64,000 bases of DNA from the NCBI GenBank assembly GCA_022709695.1, contig JAKLII010000001.1:150881-214880 (forward strand), given 5' to 3'. Both the position numbers and the translations under genes were made by a program. This document shows positions 14,607 to 23,267 of this stretch, in pieces. The DNA is from Bacteroidota bacterium (GTDB taxonomy: Bacteria > Bacteroidota > Bacteroidia > Bacteroidales > SKPS01). Position 1 is the first letter of the stretch, and every line of letters begins with the position of its first letter. Below the pieces are notes generated by a model. That model was not told the DNA's origin. It did no database searches and saw only the letters and a list, made by a program, of their open reading frames with translations.

Positions 14607-14630
14607 CATTCGGTAATATTTGAAATTTAC

Positions 14631-14757
14631 CCGTAGGGTCAACGCACGCGTTGACCCGTTTTTGTTTTTAGCATTATCACCCCGTAGGGTCAACGCACGC
14701 GTTGACCCGTTTTTGTTTTTAGCATTATCACCCCGTAGGGTCAACGCACGCGTTGAC
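14631..14757 (+). repeat. 51-bp tandem repeat, terminator-like hairpins
   Basis: Three copies start at 14631, 14682 and 14733. Each holds perfect 10-bp arms GGGTCAACGC and GCGTTGACCC around the dinucleotide AC. In the first two copies this is followed by GTTTTTGTTTTT, giving the form of an intrinsic terminator. The third copy runs straight into the next repeat family and lacks the T tract. The position just after the TPR gene fits a role in ending gyrA-operon transcription. Confidence 0.9.
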
Positions 14758-15157
14758 CCGGATGCAGTGACCATTGGGAAATCTATGGTTTCACGAAACC
14801 CTCTGCTGGTCACGGAATCCGGGGTTGATGGCGCCCGCGTGCCCCCCAAAAACCCCGTAGGCGGTGCCCTGAGCCTGCCGAAGGGGGTCGAATATTTGTA
14901 GCCCCGGATGCAGTGACCACAGGAATACCCATGGTTTCCGGATTCCCTTTGATGGTCGCGGAATCCGGGGTTGTTGGCGCCCGCGTGCCCCACGACCTCG
15001 GAGGGGTCGAATATTTGTAGCCCCGGATGCAGTGACCATTGGGAAATCTATGGTTTCACGAAACCCTGTGCTGGTCACGGAATCCGGGGGTTGATAGCGC
15101 CAGCGTGCCCCCCAACGACCCCGGAGGCGGTGCCCTGAGCCTGCCGAAGGGGTCGAA
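14758..15157. repeat. Nested-hairpin repeat, three copies
   Basis: Copies span 14758-14903, 14904-15022 and 15023-15157. Each has an outer inverted repeat: CCCCGGAT-GCA-GTGACCA on the left and TGGTCAC-GGA-ATCCGGGG on the right (in copy 1, left arm 14757-14773, right arm 14807-14824). Copies 1 and 3 have an inner hairpin GGTTTC-AC-GAAACC. Copy 2 differs inside, and its right arm has TGGTCGC, a change that keeps pairing as a G-U wobble. Copies 1 and 3 end with a GGTGCCCTGAGCCTGCCGAA segment of a type seen scattered in many environmental genomes (recalled, not searched); copy 2 has lost it. Confidence 0.85.
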
Positions 15158-15375
15158 CAGGTTTTGGCTGTCTGGTAGGAGAGGGGCTCGCCGGAATTGT
15201 CGGTATAAGGGCAAAGTCTGCAAATGAGTTATGATTTATATGTTATTAGTGATGAAGTTTGGCAATGCCCGAGTGACATTAAGCATTAGGCATTGAGACC
15301 ACTCTGAAAAGAAAGGCCCGCTGATTCCTCTAACATGGAACCTGGAACATGTGGAACATGGAACCATTTTTTGTT

Positions 15376-15452
15376 ATCGCTGCTTCGCAGCTTTAAAATT
15401 CTGGTGAGGCACCGAATTTCTACCGAATTAATCGCTGCTTCGCAGCTTTAAA
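15376..15452. repeat. Two copies of a 22-bp hairpin element
   Basis: An identical 22-bp element occurs at 15376-15397 and 15431-15452. It contains the small hairpin GCTGC-TTC-GCAGC followed by TTTAAA. It sits beside AT-rich short-period repeats, within the gene-free region. Confidence 0.8.
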
Positions 15453-15679
15453 CATATAAACATTTGAACATTTAAACATTTAAACACTTGAATATTTGAA
15501 CATTGATCCTTGATCCTTGAACATAATGAGTAGGGGGTATGTGAAATAATATAGTTAACATAATATAAATTATAGGACAAACGGATGTGTTGAAAAAATC
15601 CCGAAATATTCCGGAGTACGCTGCGTTATAGCTATGGCAAGTCTTTCTACCTTGCAGCCCATTTTATACAGCGATCGAT

Positions 15680-18600
15680 ATGCAAAGTTTATTGGCACGT
15701 GTTTGGTTACTACTTCTGTGTGTTTTCTGTTTATCCAATTCCTTTTCCCAGAATGTTCCGCAGGATCCGCCCATCCAAACCGATGATCAGGGACTCCTGT
15801 GGAAAATCGAAGGAAAAAACCTTTCAGCTCCATGCTATCTCTATGGCACCCTGGAGACCTCCAGCAAACTCGCCTACCATCTCAGCGATTCGTTCTTCGT
15901 TGCCTTCCGCAATGCCAAACGGGTTATCATTACCCTTCACCCCGATTCTGTTGAAAATGCCCAACACTACCCGGCCCTGATGCGACGCTATTATCAAAAC
16001 AATGATATCGACCTATCTTACTCACCTGCATACAATTACTACAGCCAGCTTACCCCGCAGAAAACCGATGAGGGTTTCTGGGAATATGTGGTTTCGGGAC
16101 TGGCTGTGAATCCGTGGATGCTCTATACAGCCAGCGACGACAGCGAAGAGGAAAAATCGCTGTCGGAATTTATGTACCTCTCGGCCCTGAAGCTGAAAAA
16201 GCCTGTGCTGGGGCTGATTTCCATGGAAGAAGAGCTTTCGTATCGGGAGAAACAGACGAAGTATTTTCAGGATAAAAAGGAAAATACCGACAATGAGCGG
16301 GAAGATTATGGTGAATCGGAACTGGTGGTGGAACGCGCCCTGGCGGCTTACCGTCGTGGCGACCTGGCCTCATTCGATTCGCTGTACCGCAAATATGTGA
16401 ACGATACCAGTTATTTCCGGCAGGTGCTCGAGCCCCGGTACCGTTTTCTGGCCGCAAAACTGGCGGAAAGGCTGCAGGATAACAAGCCTTTTCTGGCGGT
16501 GGTTGAAGTGTTTGCCCTGCCCGGCGACAGCGGTATAATCGCTGCACTCCGTGCCGGCGGATATCATGTTACAGCTGTAAAACATCAGATCATTACCAAA
16601 CCAAACCCGGAGGTCAGGAAGCTTGAAAACCTCACTTCACCGGCCTCCTTTGTCCCCTACACCTCCCGCTCAGGCCTGTGGAGCGTTATGATTCCGGAAA
16701 ATTCGCAGAGCGCCCATGCCGAAGAGGGACTTACCGCAGGGTTTACCGACAGGGTTAACGATGTAACATTCTATGTGTGGCGAATTCCGAACCACAGCCA
16801 GGTGGAAGGAAAAACCCCTGCATGGTTGTTCGCGCAGATGGACTCTGTGTTCTTTGAATTTGTACCCGGAAAGGTGGTGCGCCGAAGGGAGCACACCCTG
16901 GCAGGTTATCCCGCAGTGGATGTCACCTCCAGAATCTCGCGCGACCGGCAGGAGATGTTCAGGCTGGTCATCACCCCTATCGAAGTGATCCTGGTCAGGG
17001 TCTCGGGACCCCGCAAATACCTCCGGAAGAACAAGGCCGGGGAAAAATTCATCCGCAGTGCAAAAATCCATCCCCCTGCCGGAGACAGCCTCATAACCTG
17101 CAGTCCGGAACATGGGGAGTTTGCGGTATCCCTGCCCGCTTACCATTTTGCCGACAGCACCCTGAGCCACGGGATCTTTCCGGCTCCCGACCTGGAATAC
17201 CAGGCCTGGGATCCCGTTTCCGGATCGTGGTACCTTCTTAAGCGAAAAGTGCATTTCGACCTGGAGACCCTCGAAGAGGATACGTTTGATCTCCATTTCA
17301 TGGCCGAATCCATCGCCAAAACGCAAAAAAAAGAGCTCGTTACCGGCGAAACCGCTGCCCTGCAGGGGTATCCTTCGTACACCTTCAGCCTCTGGTCGGC
17401 CGATGCCCCGGATACCCTTTACCACAAGATCATCAAGGCCGGCAAACGGCTCTATCTGCTGGCCGTCAGGACTTCTGACCCACTGCGGGCGAACCGGTAC
17501 TTCGAAAGCTTCACGCTGAAACCGGTGGTTTATGCCCTCCGTACCGACACCCTTACCGATACGGTACTCGCCTGCAGGGTGGTGTCGGGGGTGCCCAAAC
17601 AGGAGTGGGATCTCACGGGCAGCAACGAAAACGAATACGCAGACTGGAACGACAGTGATTACGAACAGAAAAAGCGGGAGTATTCCCATCTTCCCCAGCG
17701 CCGGCAGGCTACATGGTACTTCCCCGACGGTGATGAGTATATCGTGGCAGAGCGGCTGAAACTGCATGACTACACGCAGTTTTCATCCTTCGGGGAGTTC
17801 CGGGAGGTGGTTACACGCAACGCCACTCGCAAAAACGATCTGCAGGTCATCCGTTCCGGGGCCGATTCTGCCTGCGCCTTTCCATGGATCGATCTGGTGC
17901 TTGGAGATACCGGAACCATCGCCCTGATCCACAAACGGTTTATCCTCCATCACGGAGCGCTGTTTACCCTCACCACCATGTCGGATACCATTACCGGTGA
18001 ACCACCCTACACCCGCCTGTTTTTCAGATCTTTCACCCCCATAGCCGATACCCTTGCCGGAATTTCTCCCTTTGCCGACAAAGGATCGATGTTCCTGCGC
18101 AACTACCTGTCGAACGATACCATCGCGGTAAAACAGGCCATCTCCTCGGTGGATAAGGTACAATTCGGGGTCCAACATTATGATTCACTGCTTCTTATAC
18201 TGAAAGACAAAGCCCTGATGCAGCGAAATCTGGAGCTGACCACCCACCTCATTGAAGCCTTCGGTCGGATGGATGCACCCCGAACCCCCGCAGACCTTCA
18301 GCAACTCTACCATTTCTACCAGGGACAACCGGCACTTCAGGTAGCCGTTTTCAAAGCATTGATAATGAATGGAAGACATCATTCTGCCCCAATGGTGATG
18401 GAGATCCTTACCAGCGACCCTCCCCTACCCGACGATGAAGCGGAACTCCATACTTTAATTAAACCATTCCAAAAAACATCAGATCAATATGTTAAAATTC
18501 TGAAAGACCTGATCGGAATGGAACGTTATCCTGAATACAGAAAACTGGTGTATGGCGTGGTACTGGGCATGATCGAGGATAAAAAGCTTTCGAAGGAGCA

Positions 18601-19489
18601 GTCTGCCGGTTTATATCCTGCCCTCAGATCCAGCCTTTCCGAAGAGGTGAAGCGGAACCGCATTTATCTGCAATCCGATCCGGCAGATACAGAGAAGCCC
18701 GGGGAAAAGACCAGGTACCTTGCAGAGGAGGAAGATGGGTACGACTGGGAGGAAGAATTCGTGGAGGAGGATGACCCTGTGGCAGATGATCGTTCGGAGG
18801 ATTTGAAGGATACCCTGCTGAACGACCCCTACGCCAATGTCTCTGACCTGATGATGCTGTACAGGATGGTATATCCGTTAACCCCGAAGCAGGATTCGGC
18901 ATGGCTGGAATCGGTAACTTCTGAGATTTTACGAGGGAAAATCCGCAACGATGCCCTGAGCGTCACCCTCTACCTCGCCAAAAAGGGGCGCCAGCCTGCT
19001 GATTCCCTGCATCTTGAATTCATCCGGGACCCGCGAATCCGCCTGGATTATTACCGTATGCGGAAAGAATCGGGGCTTGATTTTCAGGATTCAACGAAGC
19101 AGTTTACACAGCAAAGCATTGCCGAAAGCATGCTGTACCGCGAGGTTGATGCGGAGGAGAGTGACAGCATCACCTATGTGGGAAAGCGTTTTATCCACAC
19201 CCCCCGCAGGGAGGGTTATGTCTGTTTTTTCAAATACAGGTCGGGGTACGGAAGCGATAAAGACTGGTATCTGGGAGCTGTGGGGATACAGCCTGCCGAT
19301 ACCCTGGAGATCAGCGTTAAACCCGATTTTCTGCTCACCGAGGCAGAGCGGATTTTTCCGGGGGACGACCTTGAGAAGCTGATGGACAAAATGGTGACCA
19401 CCCAGTTCAGAAAACTGTACCGGAAACGTTTTTCCGATCCATCATCCTATGAAACCTACTATGAGGAAGAAGAAGCTTATGAAGAATAA
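15680..19489 (+). CDS. Giant TraB/GumN-family protein, catalytic motifs lost
   Basis: A 1269-residue exported protein (signal peptide LLLLCVFCLSNSFSQ). Residues about 38-305 align by eye with the TraB/PrgY/GumN/TIKI fold: LLWKIEGKNLSAPCYLYGTL, and ALPGDSGIIAALRAGGY near the end. The family's metal-binding GxxH motifs are missing: position His of motif 1 is Glu59 (G56-T-L-E), and motif 2 reads E276-V-F-A279. The family's conserved Glu is also not evident. Three alpha/beta modules follow (about 325-470, 475-620, 690-795), sharing GYPA and F-x-SF endings, then a helical HEAT-like part and a C-terminal domain (EGYVCFFKYRSGYG, IQPADTLE). It overlaps its paralogue by 11 bases. Function is unknown; it reads as an inactive partner. 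Confidence 0.75.
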   Translation: MQSLLARVWLLLLCVFCLSNSFSQNVPQDPPIQTDDQGLLWKIEGKNLSAPCYLYGTLETSSKLAYHLSDSFFVAFRNAKRVIITLHPDSVENAQHYPALMRRYYQNNDIDLSYSPAYNYYSQLTPQKTDEGFWEYVVSGLAVNPWMLYTASDDSEEEKSLSEFMYLSALKLKKPVLGLISMEEELSYREKQTKYFQDKKENTDNEREDYGESELVVERALAAYRRGDLASFDSLYRKYVNDTSYFRQVLEPRYRFLAAKLAERLQDNKPFLAVVEVFALPGDSGIIAALRAGGYHVTAVKHQIITKPNPEVRKLENLTSPASFVPYTSRSGLWSVMIPENSQSAHAEEGLTAGFTDRVNDVTFYVWRIPNHSQVEGKTPAWLFAQMDSVFFEFVPGKVVRRREHTLAGYPAVDVTSRISRDRQEMFRLVITPIEVILVRVSGPRKYLRKNKAGEKFIRSAKIHPPAGDSLITCSPEHGEFAVSLPAYHFADSTLSHGIFPAPDLEYQAWDPVSGSWYLLKRKVHFDLETLEEDTFDLHFMAESIAKTQKKELVTGETAALQGYPSYTFSLWSADAPDTLYHKIIKAGKRLYLLAVRTSDPLRANRYFESFTLKPVVYALRTDTLTDTVLACRVVSGVPKQEWDLTGSNENEYADWNDSDYEQKKREYSHLPQRRQATWYFPDGDEYIVAERLKLHDYTQFSSFGEFREVVTRNATRKNDLQVIRSGADSACAFPWIDLVLGDTGTIALIHKRFILHHGALFTLTTMSDTITGEPPYTRLFFRSFTPIADTLAGISPFADKGSMFLRNYLSNDTIAVKQAISSVDKVQFGVQHYDSLLLILKDKALMQRNLELTTHLIEAFGRMDAPRTPADLQQLYHFYQGQPALQVAVFKALIMNGRHHSAPMVMEILTSDPPLPDDEAELHTLIKPFQKTSDQYVKILKDLIGMERYPEYRKLVYGVVLGMIEDKKLSKEQSAGLYPALRSSLSEEVKRNRIYLQSDPADTEKPGEKTRYLAEEEDGYDWEEEFVEEDDPVADDRSEDLKDTLLNDPYANVSDLMMLYRMVYPLTPKQDSAWLESVTSEILRGKIRNDALSVTLYLAKKGRQPADSLHLEFIRDPRIRLDYYRMRKESGLDFQDSTKQFTQQSIAESMLYREVDAEESDSITYVGKRFIHTPRREGYVCFFKYRSGYGSDKDWYLGAVGIQPADTLEISVKPDFLLTEAERIFPGDDLEKLMDKMVTTQFRKLYRKRFSDPSSYETYYEEEEAYEE

Positions 19490-22400
19490 AAACAAGGGCA
19501 TTTCAACGCCCCGCTTTCACGTATTTCTTGCCGGCCGGCTCCGGATATGGCTTTACCTTGTGTGTTGTTTTCCGGTGATATCCGCAACCGCACAGGTGGT
19601 GCAGGATTCTGTTTCCGTGCCTGCCGTAGCAGAAACCCAGGCAAAACCGGAGGCAAAGTACCCCTCTCTGTTGTGGGAAATCACCGGTCCGGGGATGGAG
19701 CAGCCTTCGTGGCTGTATGGAACCATGCATGTGAGCCGCAGGCTGGCGTTCCACCTGGGCGACACCTTTTTTATGGCCATCCGTGCCGTGGATGTGGTGG
19801 CCCTTGAGTCGAACCCCGGTGAGTGGATGGAAAACTACACCACCTCCCCCTTCTACCGGAACAAGGTGCTGAGCAGCTCCAGCCACCTGAGTACCTATCA
19901 GTACCGCAACTTTTACCGGAACCTGTTTTTCCCCGAGCTCCCGGAAGTAAAGAAATTCTCAGGCCTGTTGTCGAAGAAATACGACATCATGAACCACATG
20001 CTTTACCGGAAAAACGATGCCCTGTCGGATTTCCAGGAGAAGACCTACCTCGATCTGTTCATTTATCAGGCCGGTGCCAAGGGGGGTAAGAAGATCATCG
20101 GGCTCGAGGACTTTGAGGTATCGAGGGAGATGGTACGGAATGCAGAGACCCCGCCCGACAAAAAGGAGCGGAAGAAGGAGGAGATTACGCGTGACCAGTC
20201 AAAATTGCGCTCCAGGGCCGGAGAGATGATCGAAGATGCCTACCGCAGGGGTGACCTGGACATGCTCGACAGCCTTTCGCGCCTGATGGACCCCTATCCG
20301 AAGTACCACACCTGGATGATCGTAAAGCGCAACGAAGTGATGGTGCAAACAATCGACTCGGTGATCCGCTCGGGCGGGTCGATTTTTGCCGCTGCAGGTG
20401 CCGCACACCTCCCCGGCGACAGCGGTATCATCGAGATGCTGATCCGCCGGGGGTACACCCTGCGGCCGGTGGCACGTTCCATCAACAAAACGCAGAACAA
20501 GGGCAAGGACAAAATCGATGCGAAAACGGTAGCCCTGCCGCTTGCTGCCTGGGCCACCCCCGACGGCGATATCCGCCTGGAGACACCAGGAACCCTATAC
20601 AACAGCATGCTCTTCTCGGAACAGGGCGAATACCTCTTCCCCGATATGACCAACGGCAGCTTTTTCGTGCTGAAACGTTTCCCGACCTATGCCCCGTTCA
20701 GAGGGCATACCCCCGACGATGTCAAGGCACGCTTCGACAGCCTGATCTACGAGTTTATCCCCGGCAAAATCAACCATTTCAAAGATATTACCCTGTCGGG
20801 CTACCCGGCCTATGACATCGGTGCTACCCTGAATTCGGGCGACAGGCAGCGGTACCGCATCCTGTTCACCCCGCTCGAGGTGATCGTGCTGAAGGTGAGT
20901 GGCCCCGCCAACTACATGAAAAAGGAGAAAGCACCTGAGAAATTCCTCAGCTCCTTCAGTTTCAGGAACAGCAAACCGGATGCATGGAGCACCTGGGAGG
21001 CCGGAAACGGGCATTTTTCTGTGAAGCTCCCCTCCTACCGTCTGGCGGATACTACAGCGATGTTCTTCACCTCACTCAAAGACCTCATCGTCCAGGCTTA
21101 TGAGCCGGAAGACAGCAGCTACTACCTGCTTACAAAAGGCTCCTATTTCGACCTGAATTACATTGAATCCGACACCTTCGAGCTCAACATCCTCGCAGAG
21201 CAGTTCGCTGAACAGTTCGACCTGAAGATGTATGACACCAGGCATACGCAGGCAGTCGGTTATCCATCGCTGGTGTGCACCATGGCCGGTGCCGACTCCC
21301 TGAGGTTCTACCGCACACAGTTCGTAATTGCAGGGCCGGCTTACTATATGCTCCTTACCACCAGCAGGGATCCGGAAAAACAGAACCGGTTCCTGGCGTC
21401 GTTTACCCCTGCACCACCTGCCTGGTCAGAGGGGGATTTTTTCACCCATACCGACACCACCATGCATTTCACCGTTGAAACGGTATGCCGACCCCCGGTG
21501 GAGGAACCGGGTGGGTACTACTCCTATTATTATGGTAATGAAAAAGAGGAGGACAACTCCCACCGTGCGGAATCTTCCGATACCTATTTCTTTGATTATA
21601 AAACCGTTGAGTTGATCAGGGTTGAATTCGAAAAGTTCCACAAATACCGGTCTTTTGCCAATACAGATTCTCTCTGGAAAAGAGAAATCAGGTTTCTCAA
21701 CGATGACTCATCGATGGTGCTGCGCAAAATGAACCCGGACCAGTTTACCTCCCCTTCGGGCCAGGTTGTAAACACCTGCTATATTGAATTTTGCGATACG
21801 GCATCTTCCCGGATGATCCTCCACAAGCTGATCCGGAAACATGGCGCCCTGTACACCCTCTCCACCGTTTCCGATACCGTAAACGGCCCTTCTGCCTTTA
21901 TCACCCGCTTTTTTGCATCCTTTACCCCTTCGGACGACACGCTGATCGGCTGGAATGTTTTTGACGACAAGGGCACCCTGTGGCTGAATGATCTGGTATC
22001 AGCAGATTCCACCACCCGTGCCCAGGCCCGTAACTCGCTGAGTGTGGTTGATTTCAGTGACCATCATGCCCCGTTGCTGATGGAAAGGATTGCAAACCCC
22101 CTCTGGAAGGAGCACACCTTTTCCTTCAGAAAATCCCTGATACAATCGCTGCAAACGCTTAAAAATCCTGATATCCCGGCATTTCTGGAGCAGCAGTACG
22201 GCAGGGCAGGCGATACGGTAACCCTGCAGCTGGCCATTCTGGAAGCCCTGGCCGGCCAAAAAAACGAAGCTTCGGTGCGTGCATTTCTCAGTTGCCTCCG
22301 TACAGATTTGCCCCTTACCCAAAACAGCGGCGATATCGATGACCTGTTTTACAGCTTCAGAGACAGCCTGCAGATGGCCCGTTTGTTATTTCCTGAAATA

Positions 22401-23267
22401 CTGAACTATACCCGTTACCGGGAATATGAGGACAACATCTATCAGACGCTGGTAGTGCTGCTCGACAGCGGATTTATCCAGGCCAAGGATTTCAGGTCGG
22501 AATACGACATCATCGTCAGGAATGCCAGGGATGCATGGAAGCGGCATCTGGCCCGGGAAGAGGCCGATAACGACAAAAAGAGCGAATACTATGGATCCGG
22601 TTCAGGGGGTTCCACATGGTCGGCCTACGGAGGAAGCTACCATTACCGTCTGCTCACCGGTCTCAAGCTCCTGCTTGCCTTTGGAAATGATGACCCTAAT
22701 GCAGTGAAGCTGATCAGCCAGATGATGTCGACCCGCACCATGAACCTCCGGATTGACCTCACTGTGCTGCTCCTCTCGAAAGGGTATCCGGTCCCGGATT
22801 CACTCGTCAGCGCTTTGAGCTGTGACCCCTGGTCGATGGCAACCTTCTATCAGCGGCTCGATAAAGCAAAGATCCTGAAGTATTTCGATTCCACTGCCAT
22901 CCACCAGCAGTTGTTTGCACAAAGCCTGCTGCAGAAGGAGGTGAATCTGCAGGTGCGTGACAGCATTGAATATCTCGATCGCAGGTATACCAACGGGCTC
23001 AGGGGGGAAGGATATGTGTATTTCTTCAGGATCAGGAAGCAGGGCGACAATTACTGGAAGCTCTACTGGACCGGCATTCAGCCGGCCGACTCATCAAATG
23101 TGGCGTTTAAAGACCTGATCTGTGATTCACGAGGACAGAGGATCTACGTGAACGACAAAATGGAAGAGCTGATGGAAAAGGAGATCAAGAAAATCAGGCT
23201 GATGGGGCGAAAGCGGGCTGAGAACATGAGCTTCGAGAAGGAGAAGTTGTCGTATCTCATCTTTTAG
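19479..23267 (+). CDS. Giant TraB/GumN-family protein, catalytic motifs intact
   Basis: A 1262-residue paralogue of the preceding gene. The start at 19479 (ATGAAGAATAA overlapping the upstream stop) is preferred over 19449 because a purine-rich AGGAAGAAGAAG lies before it. A signal peptide ends near ATAQ. The TraB domain (about 60-325) keeps both GxxH motifs, G81-T-M-H84 (YGTMHVS) and G307-A-A-H310 (GAAHLPGDSG), and Glu110 (ALESNPGEW), as expected for a metal-dependent hydrolase of the TIKI/TraB superfamily. Three repeated modules follow (cores near 425-495, 584-650 and 756-820; endings KFLSSFSF, RFLASFTP, RFFASFTP), then a HEAT-like helical region and a conserved C-terminal domain. Usual GumN proteins have about 300 residues, so roughly three quarters is extra. 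The substrate is unknown. Confidence 0.78.
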   Translation: MKNKNKGISTPRFHVFLAGRLRIWLYLVCCFPVISATAQVVQDSVSVPAVAETQAKPEAKYPSLLWEITGPGMEQPSWLYGTMHVSRRLAFHLGDTFFMAIRAVDVVALESNPGEWMENYTTSPFYRNKVLSSSSHLSTYQYRNFYRNLFFPELPEVKKFSGLLSKKYDIMNHMLYRKNDALSDFQEKTYLDLFIYQAGAKGGKKIIGLEDFEVSREMVRNAETPPDKKERKKEEITRDQSKLRSRAGEMIEDAYRRGDLDMLDSLSRLMDPYPKYHTWMIVKRNEVMVQTIDSVIRSGGSIFAAAGAAHLPGDSGIIEMLIRRGYTLRPVARSINKTQNKGKDKIDAKTVALPLAAWATPDGDIRLETPGTLYNSMLFSEQGEYLFPDMTNGSFFVLKRFPTYAPFRGHTPDDVKARFDSLIYEFIPGKINHFKDITLSGYPAYDIGATLNSGDRQRYRILFTPLEVIVLKVSGPANYMKKEKAPEKFLSSFSFRNSKPDAWSTWEAGNGHFSVKLPSYRLADTTAMFFTSLKDLIVQAYEPEDSSYYLLTKGSYFDLNYIESDTFELNILAEQFAEQFDLKMYDTRHTQAVGYPSLVCTMAGADSLRFYRTQFVIAGPAYYMLLTTSRDPEKQNRFLASFTPAPPAWSEGDFFTHTDTTMHFTVETVCRPPVEEPGGYYSYYYGNEKEEDNSHRAESSDTYFFDYKTVELIRVEFEKFHKYRSFANTDSLWKREIRFLNDDSSMVLRKMNPDQFTSPSGQVVNTCYIEFCDTASSRMILHKLIRKHGALYTLSTVSDTVNGPSAFITRFFASFTPSDDTLIGWNVFDDKGTLWLNDLVSADSTTRAQARNSLSVVDFSDHHAPLLMERIANPLWKEHTFSFRKSLIQSLQTLKNPDIPAFLEQQYGRAGDTVTLQLAILEALAGQKNEASVRAFLSCLRTDLPLTQNSGDIDDLFYSFRDSLQMARLLFPEILNYTRYREYEDNIYQTLVVLLDSGFIQAKDFRSEYDIIVRNARDAWKRHLAREEADNDKKSEYYGSGSGGSTWSAYGGSYHYRLLTGLKLLLAFGNDDPNAVKLISQMMSTRTMNLRIDLTVLLLSKGYPVPDSLVSALSCDPWSMATFYQRLDKAKILKYFDSTAIHQQLFAQSLLQKEVNLQVRDSIEYLDRRYTNGLRGEGYVYFFRIRKQGDNYWKLYWTGIQPADSSNVAFKDLICDSRGQRIYVNDKMEELMEKEIKKIRLMGRKRAENMSFEKEKLSYLIF

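Follow-up and report, generated by a model that had tools for sequence, protein, structure and literature searches.

A tandem pair of giant TraB genes

We analysed a 64,000-nucleotide stretch of the genome of a Bacteroidota bacterium (Bacteroidales, SKPS01; assembly GCA_022709695.1, contig JAKLII010000001.1, positions 150,881 to 214,880 of the forward strand), hereafter the window. It contains two adjacent, co-directional genes for giant proteins of the TraB/PrgY/GumN family, which we call UP (upstream) and DN (downstream). A first-pass annotation had reported two full-length giant open reading frames (ORFs) here, and both are present:

15680..19489, + strand: UP, giant TraB paralogue with catalytic residues lost (probable pseudoenzyme), 1269 residues (ORF; PF01963, 71 bits; motif census)
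19449..23267, + strand: DN, giant TraB protein with intact catalytic residues, 1272 residues, or 1262 from 19479 (ORF; PF01963, 119 bits)
15680..15751, + strand: putative type I signal peptide of UP, MQSLLARVWLLLLCVFCLSNSFSQ (sequence inspection only)

The extent of the overlap between the two ORFs depends on the start codon of DN: the 11 bp of the first-pass annotation apply with the ATG at 19479, and the overlap is 41 bp with a start at 19449. Residues of DN and its homologues are numbered here from the latter start (G91xxH94, E120, G317xxH320). Like UP, DN begins with a putative type I signal peptide, as judged by inspection only. In both proteins PF01963 (TraB_PrgY_gumN) was detected N-terminally, with 71.2 bits for UP and 119.2 bits for DN at a cut-off of 26.8; Pfam gave nothing else significant for either protein, and neither NCBIfam nor PADLOC (anti-phage defence) gave a match. 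UP and DN align with 28% identity over 1040 residues (E 3e-104), and a C-terminal block aligns besides at 34%. A genome-wide search revealed no TraB genes other than these two. In a congener (genome G001) the orthologs of UP and DN are likewise adjacent and co-directional; their frames overlap by 4 nt if the start is a GTG; starts at an ATG further downstream would instead leave about 17 or 74 nt between them.

The upstream copy has lost the catalytic residues

Alignment of UP with DN, combined with a census of giant homologues from other bacteria, located the following positions:

15845..15856, + strand: UP motif 1, G56-T-L-E59, Glu instead of His (alignment)
15932..15934, + strand: UP T85, at the position of catalytic Glu120 (alignment)
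16505..16516, + strand: UP motif 2, E276-V-F-A279, Gly and His both gone (alignment)
19719..19730, + strand: DN motif 1, G91-T-M-H94 (alignment, census)
19806..19808, + strand: DN catalytic Glu120 (census)
20106..20108, + strand: DN Glu220, invariant in 95/95 giants and lost in both UP copies (census)
20397..20408, + strand: DN motif 2, G317-A-A-H320 (alignment, census)

Counting for each column the homologues in which it is aligned, G91, H94 and E120 are present in 94/94 of the other giants, E220 in 95/95, and N295, G317 and H320 in 97/97; all five catalytic positions could be scored in 94 homologues, every one of which keeps all five. DN and its ortholog in the congener retain all catalytic and invariant residues (YGSMH, E and GAAH in the congener). 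At the corresponding positions in DN numbering, UP carries E at 94, T at 120, I at 220, Y at 295, E at 317 and A at 320. Over 31 near-invariant TraB positions, DN matches at 31/31 and UP at 17/31, with the structural positions retained and H94, E120, E220, N295, G317 and H320 lost. None of the other scorable giants varies in these columns, so the loss of motifs in UP goes beyond general divergence.

These data agree with the residues proposed in the first-pass annotation, which had described intact motifs in DN (G81xxH84, E110 and G307xxH310 when counted from 19479) and G56..E59 and E276..A279 with a lost Glu in UP; the lost Glu corresponds to T85. Conservation of the motif loss, which had been suggested as a check, could be followed in the congener, the only other genome with the pair: its UP has lost motif 2 as well. 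There, the UP ortholog has M at 220, D at 317, L at 320 and, depending on the alignment, R or E at 295, so that at E220, N295, G317 and H320 each substitution differs from that in UP.

UP has very likely lost enzymatic activity, as judged from its sequence, because the TIKI-fold endopeptidase VvRRSP cannot do without the equivalent His/Glu set, and KRas was not cleaved by a TIKI-fold domain from which those residues are missing (PMC6254334). Continued catalysis by replacement residues, such as E59 or H87 near the lost Glu, is improbable. New polar residues do lie by the old site (E59, E276, H87), but the replacements differ in the congener where both are visible (E276 to D, A279 to L), the positions of E220 and N295 are hydrophobic or variable in both UPs, and the essential role of the equivalent residues in VvRRSP argues in the same direction. 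That the motif loss is an artefact of assembly or alignment has a negligible probability. The genome of the window is in 21 contigs and is probably a metagenome assembly, in which single-genome errors are possible; however, six separate positions are hit, the flanks (YGTLETS, VIITLHP, LPGDSG) align without gaps, and in the congener motif 2, E220 and N295 are lost independently.

Origin and conservation of the pair

In trees of the giant proteins, which are unrooted and in which the UP branches are long, UP grouped with the UP of the congener (support 100) and DN with the DN of the congener (100). The four sequences of the genus grouped against the rest with a Shimodaira-Hasegawa-like approximate likelihood ratio test (SH-aLRT) value of 98 in a quick tree and 94/97 in a careful tree. 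The pair is specific to the genus of the window and probably derived from one tandem duplication. An older, unrelated paralogue as the source of UP was rejected, as the tree groups UP with DN, its long branches notwithstanding.

In the congener, the UP frame runs for 1092 codons without a stop until the contig ends, with 36% identity to UP, and differences between the two genes at the three codon positions are 0.51/0.42/0.68, a pattern that points to constraint at the protein level. We compared conservation inside and outside the TraB domain, using the part of the domain visible in both genomes. For DN and its ortholog, identity is 99/145 (68%) in this part versus 435/901 (48%) elsewhere (p 7e-6), and for UP and its ortholog 41/139 (29%) versus 325/900 (36%) elsewhere (p 0.15); the difference between the lineages is significant (interaction z 4.1, p 4e-5). 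On these alignments, the UP lineage has lost the extra constraint on the TraB domain, with its binding modules still constrained.

Because the frames are long and open in two species, the codon positions show this pattern and the outer domains are conserved, UP appears from its two sequences to be conserved by selection rather than decaying. We rejected a pseudogene on the open frames and the codon-position constraint. A decaying duplicate that has no selected function is improbable: it would account for the lost catalytic residues and the elevated rate of change, but it does not fit frames that are open over their full length (for 1092 codons or more in the congener) and share 36% identity, the codon-position pattern, or the conservation of all non-catalytic domains.

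Domain architecture of both proteins

The following domains were delimited by Pfam, profile comparison and structure prediction:

15794..16573, + strand: UP TraB domain, residues 39-298 (Pfam; profile of the giants' TraB domain, E 2e-43)
16649..18031, + strand: UP, three PsbP/Mog1/DcrB-like alpha/beta modules, at about 16649-17059, 17090-17509 and 17546-18031 (AlphaFold2 model, mean predicted local distance difference test score (pLDDT) 82; Foldseek match to PsbP)
18080..19429, + strand: UP HEAT-like helical part and C-terminal beta domain (alignment to DN)
19668..20465, + strand: DN TraB domain, residues 74-339 (Pfam)
20544..20951, + strand: DN PsbP-like module 1 (model; Foldseek)
20985..21398, + strand: DN PsbP-like module 2 (model; Foldseek)
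21441..21920, + strand: DN PsbP-like module 3 (model; Foldseek)
21969..22943, + strand: DN HEAT-like helical solenoid (model; sub-threshold HEAT_2 matches in two relatives)
22962..23201, + strand: DN C-terminal beta domain (model)

DN residues 343-1272 were modelled from 65 family members with a mean pLDDT of 88 and a predicted template modelling score (pTM) of 0.81. The model places three alpha/beta modules, a long solenoid of helical hairpins and a C-terminal beta domain in this order. Searched with Foldseek against the PDB, the modules matched PsbP (2vu4, 2xb3), DcrB (6e8a), EagT6 (6xrf) and Tli4/TplEi (4r1d), the last a two-domain immunity protein of a type VI secretion system, with a probability of 1.00 and a target template modelling (TM) score of up to 0.67 (PsbP). 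Since the DN model and the Foldseek matches show them, the three alpha/beta modules, the HEAT-like part and the common C-terminal domain described by the first-pass annotation are borne out at the confidence of this model. The helices of the HEAT-like part are paired in the model, and PF13646 scored 19.6-19.7 bits in two relatives, below its cut-off of 27.7. For UP, a model of residues 25-827 (pLDDT 82) again yielded PsbP matches; its TraB domain shows an alternating order of strands and helices at moderate-to-high confidence, and all Foldseek matches came from the PsbP modules. Sequence searches of the PDB returned chance matches only, with no solved TraB chain found for fold comparison. No sequence match to a PsbP/Mog1/DcrB family was obtained in Pfam for any giant protein tested; on the predicted structures the modules can be named by fold (PsbP/Mog1/DcrB), not by sequence family.

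Giant TraB proteins across Bacteroidota

A profile of the part outside the TraB domain, searched against GTDB genomes, yielded 173 related loci, of which 80 were kept; these belong to Chitinophagaceae, Crocinitomicaceae, other Flavobacteriales, Cytophagaceae, Bacteroidales and others. The giant form occurred in 17/395 genomes sampled over the phylum and in 7/393 over the order, one of the seven (G121) being a weak false match that was discarded. It is therefore widespread, and we dropped the idea that giants are rare oddities. Nearly all of the about 100 giant homologues examined across Bacteroidota stand alone, as the only giant gene of their genome. At none of the other loci did a second giant gene lie close by, with more than 3 kb on both sides at 54 of 76 loci. 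Flanking genes are conserved only within Chitinophagaceae, in which a queA-like gene is found repeatedly in divergent and an ABC transporter gene in convergent orientation; the M48 peptidase gene next to the window's pair is shared with the congener only. Giant TraB proteins form a conserved Bacteroidota family of about 1200-1300 residues. Their active site is strictly invariant, and the TraB domain is the one part that Pfam recognises. The family is undescribed in the literature searched, in which we found no description of a giant TraB form or of a TraB pseudoenzyme.

Two groups of variants were observed. A divergent giant type of 1150-1179 residues with intact motifs occurs in G545, G584 and G592 (L157:4112-7651, L158:4419-7904 and L159:3974-7429). 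G545 and G584 have it in addition to another giant gene, to which it is not linked; in G584 and G592 it lies near genes that resemble, by inspection, those of glycerol kinase and glycerol-3-phosphate dehydrogenase. These genes were considered as possible further pairs and set aside, being unlinked or single, with intact motifs. The other group, a clade from five genomes of one genus (L139-L143), has VANE where the others have VALE around the catalytic Glu, and its scores are clearly below those of the remaining family.

Other TraB genes and the upstream gap

We also searched 198 genomes of the order with PF01963. Tandem TraB genes stand out in only two genera, that of the window and a second one (g24; genomes G024 and G137). 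The latter two species each carry three short TraB genes in tandem (L163:4908-7983 and L167:433-3500), among sulfatase genes in G024. The first gene is intact, the second has GSFN/Ala/GVLH or GVFH, and the third AVRST or AVRNT/Glu/DARYV; the degenerate states match between both species. Elsewhere in the order, the motifs are intact in most of the short TraB proteins sampled. A stand-alone short TraB gene of G040 (L164:2069-2986, - strand) has both motifs degenerate (FATIR, IAGAN) and has no active TraB neighbour within the 8 kb read.

Upstream of UP lies a gap of 1.07 kb (14607-15679). In it, a 51-bp unit with a perfect 22-bp palindrome, GGGTCAACGCACGCGTTGACCC, is present in three tandem copies; the gap also has a 119-bp repeat present 1.9 times and an array of the 8-bp TTTAAACA type. 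Elsewhere in the genome the palindrome occurs in one-mismatch forms only, at three places.

Comparison with known systems

Both UP and DN score above the cut-off of PF01963, and DN displays the two GxxH motifs of the TIKI superfamily with a Glu 26 residues after the first His. Similar His-Glu pairs are H85/E113 in Bcr135 and H3902/E3930 in VvRRSP (PMC6254334). The two proteins differ from usual PF01963 members in length (about 1270 residues versus about 300, with about 900 residues of extra modules), and UP further in the absence of the catalytic set. The PrgY/TraB proteins served as a functional model for DN, a pheromone target not being implied. To our knowledge, they have no PsbP-like, HEAT or C-terminal modules. 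In these pheromone shut-down proteins, encoded on enterococcal plasmids, a TraB-domain protein acts outside the cytoplasm on a peptide signal, and a peptidase has been proposed (PMC7117660). Like UP, the C-terminal TIKI-fold domain of PMT lacks catalytic residues; its 2His/2Glu set is reported to be absent, and it has no endopeptidase activity on KRas (PMC6254334). Unlike UP, it is part of a toxin and not a paralogue beside an active copy. Each alpha/beta module resembles the fold of PsbP, DcrB, EagT6 and Tli4/TplEi, but UP and DN have three in a row behind a TraB domain. The short triplets of G024 and G137 parallel the pair in that an intact TraB gene stands in tandem with degenerate copies, conserved between two species; they differ in size (about 320-350 residues), in having the active copy first, and in being of separate origin, in another family of the same order.

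Possible role of UP beside DN

We propose that DN is an exported hydrolase of the TIKI/TraB type, probably a peptidase. In one chain with its TraB domain it carries three PsbP/Mog1-like binding modules, followed by a HEAT-like solenoid and a C-terminal domain, and this large module array would bind a target or partner. After a probable tandem duplication of the giant gene in the genus of the window, UP dropped the catalytic His, Glu and Gly and kept the scaffold of the TraB core and all other domains. Both proteins would be made from the same transcript, and the modules shared by UP may bind the same target or DN itself, by which UP would tune the active enzyme, recruit to it or compete with it. 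That UP is kept as such a non-catalytic helper or regulator is suggested because a full-length copy without catalytic residues adjoins DN, and the single copies of other bacteria keep theirs. We regard UP as a conserved pseudoenzyme and give an even chance to its being a partner of DN, physically or functionally, which is the most likely of the roles considered; the role of a regulatory or capture partner produced together with DN would be the most economical.

Several points weigh against this reading. The pair is known from two genomes only; in the congener, motif 1 of UP lies beyond the contig end and the DN gene is in two pieces, on contigs C8 and C302. Giant homologues elsewhere act without a partner. 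Export, the hydrolase activity of DN, the inactivity of UP, co-transcription and an interaction of the two proteins are inferred. Since the species split, UP has changed about twice as fast as DN (2.08 versus 0.96 changes/site), which fits an independent new role too. This is the chief rival: a catalytically dead UP that no longer acts with DN and has been given a new use of its own, as a binding protein of the periplasm or surface, its adjacency being a remnant of tandem duplication. The long UP stem (1.25-1.43), the fast evolution of UP and the loss of extra conservation in its TraB domain, with other domains still constrained, all speak for such a protein. On the other hand, adjacency and co-orientation have been held in two species, though their DN proteins are only about 49-57% identical, and UP was never found without DN. 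We consider independent repurposing possible and rather unlikely; the sequence data cannot separate it from the role of a DN partner.

The enzyme/pseudoenzyme pairing proposed in the first-pass annotation thus stands in part. The catalytic set of UP is lost, the protein is conserved, the loss of motif 2 is shared and the genes are tightly co-directional in both genomes; as a general system the pairing is not supported, as the active giant is nearly always alone. Many genomes carry the active copy only, this being the rule and, for that copy, the outcome that the first-pass annotation had named as refuting; in the two genomes with UP the inactive copy never occurs by itself, which fits a dependence of UP on DN. 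A wider proposal, which we advance tentatively and consider less likely than not, is that dedicated inactive tandem paralogues control TraB/TIKI hydrolases in some Bacteroidota lineages, having arisen at least twice (the giant form in the genus of the window, the short form in g24). UP would then serve an exported TraB peptidase either as a regulatory subunit or as a decoy that captures substrate.

UP represents a natural catalytic-dead variant in which every binding module is retained, and its comparison with DN offers a direct route to the ligands of the modules and to whether the role of the family needs catalysis. If the partnership is true, the TIKI/TraB superfamily, for which few bacterial substrates are known, would have a regulatory pseudoenzyme in UP.

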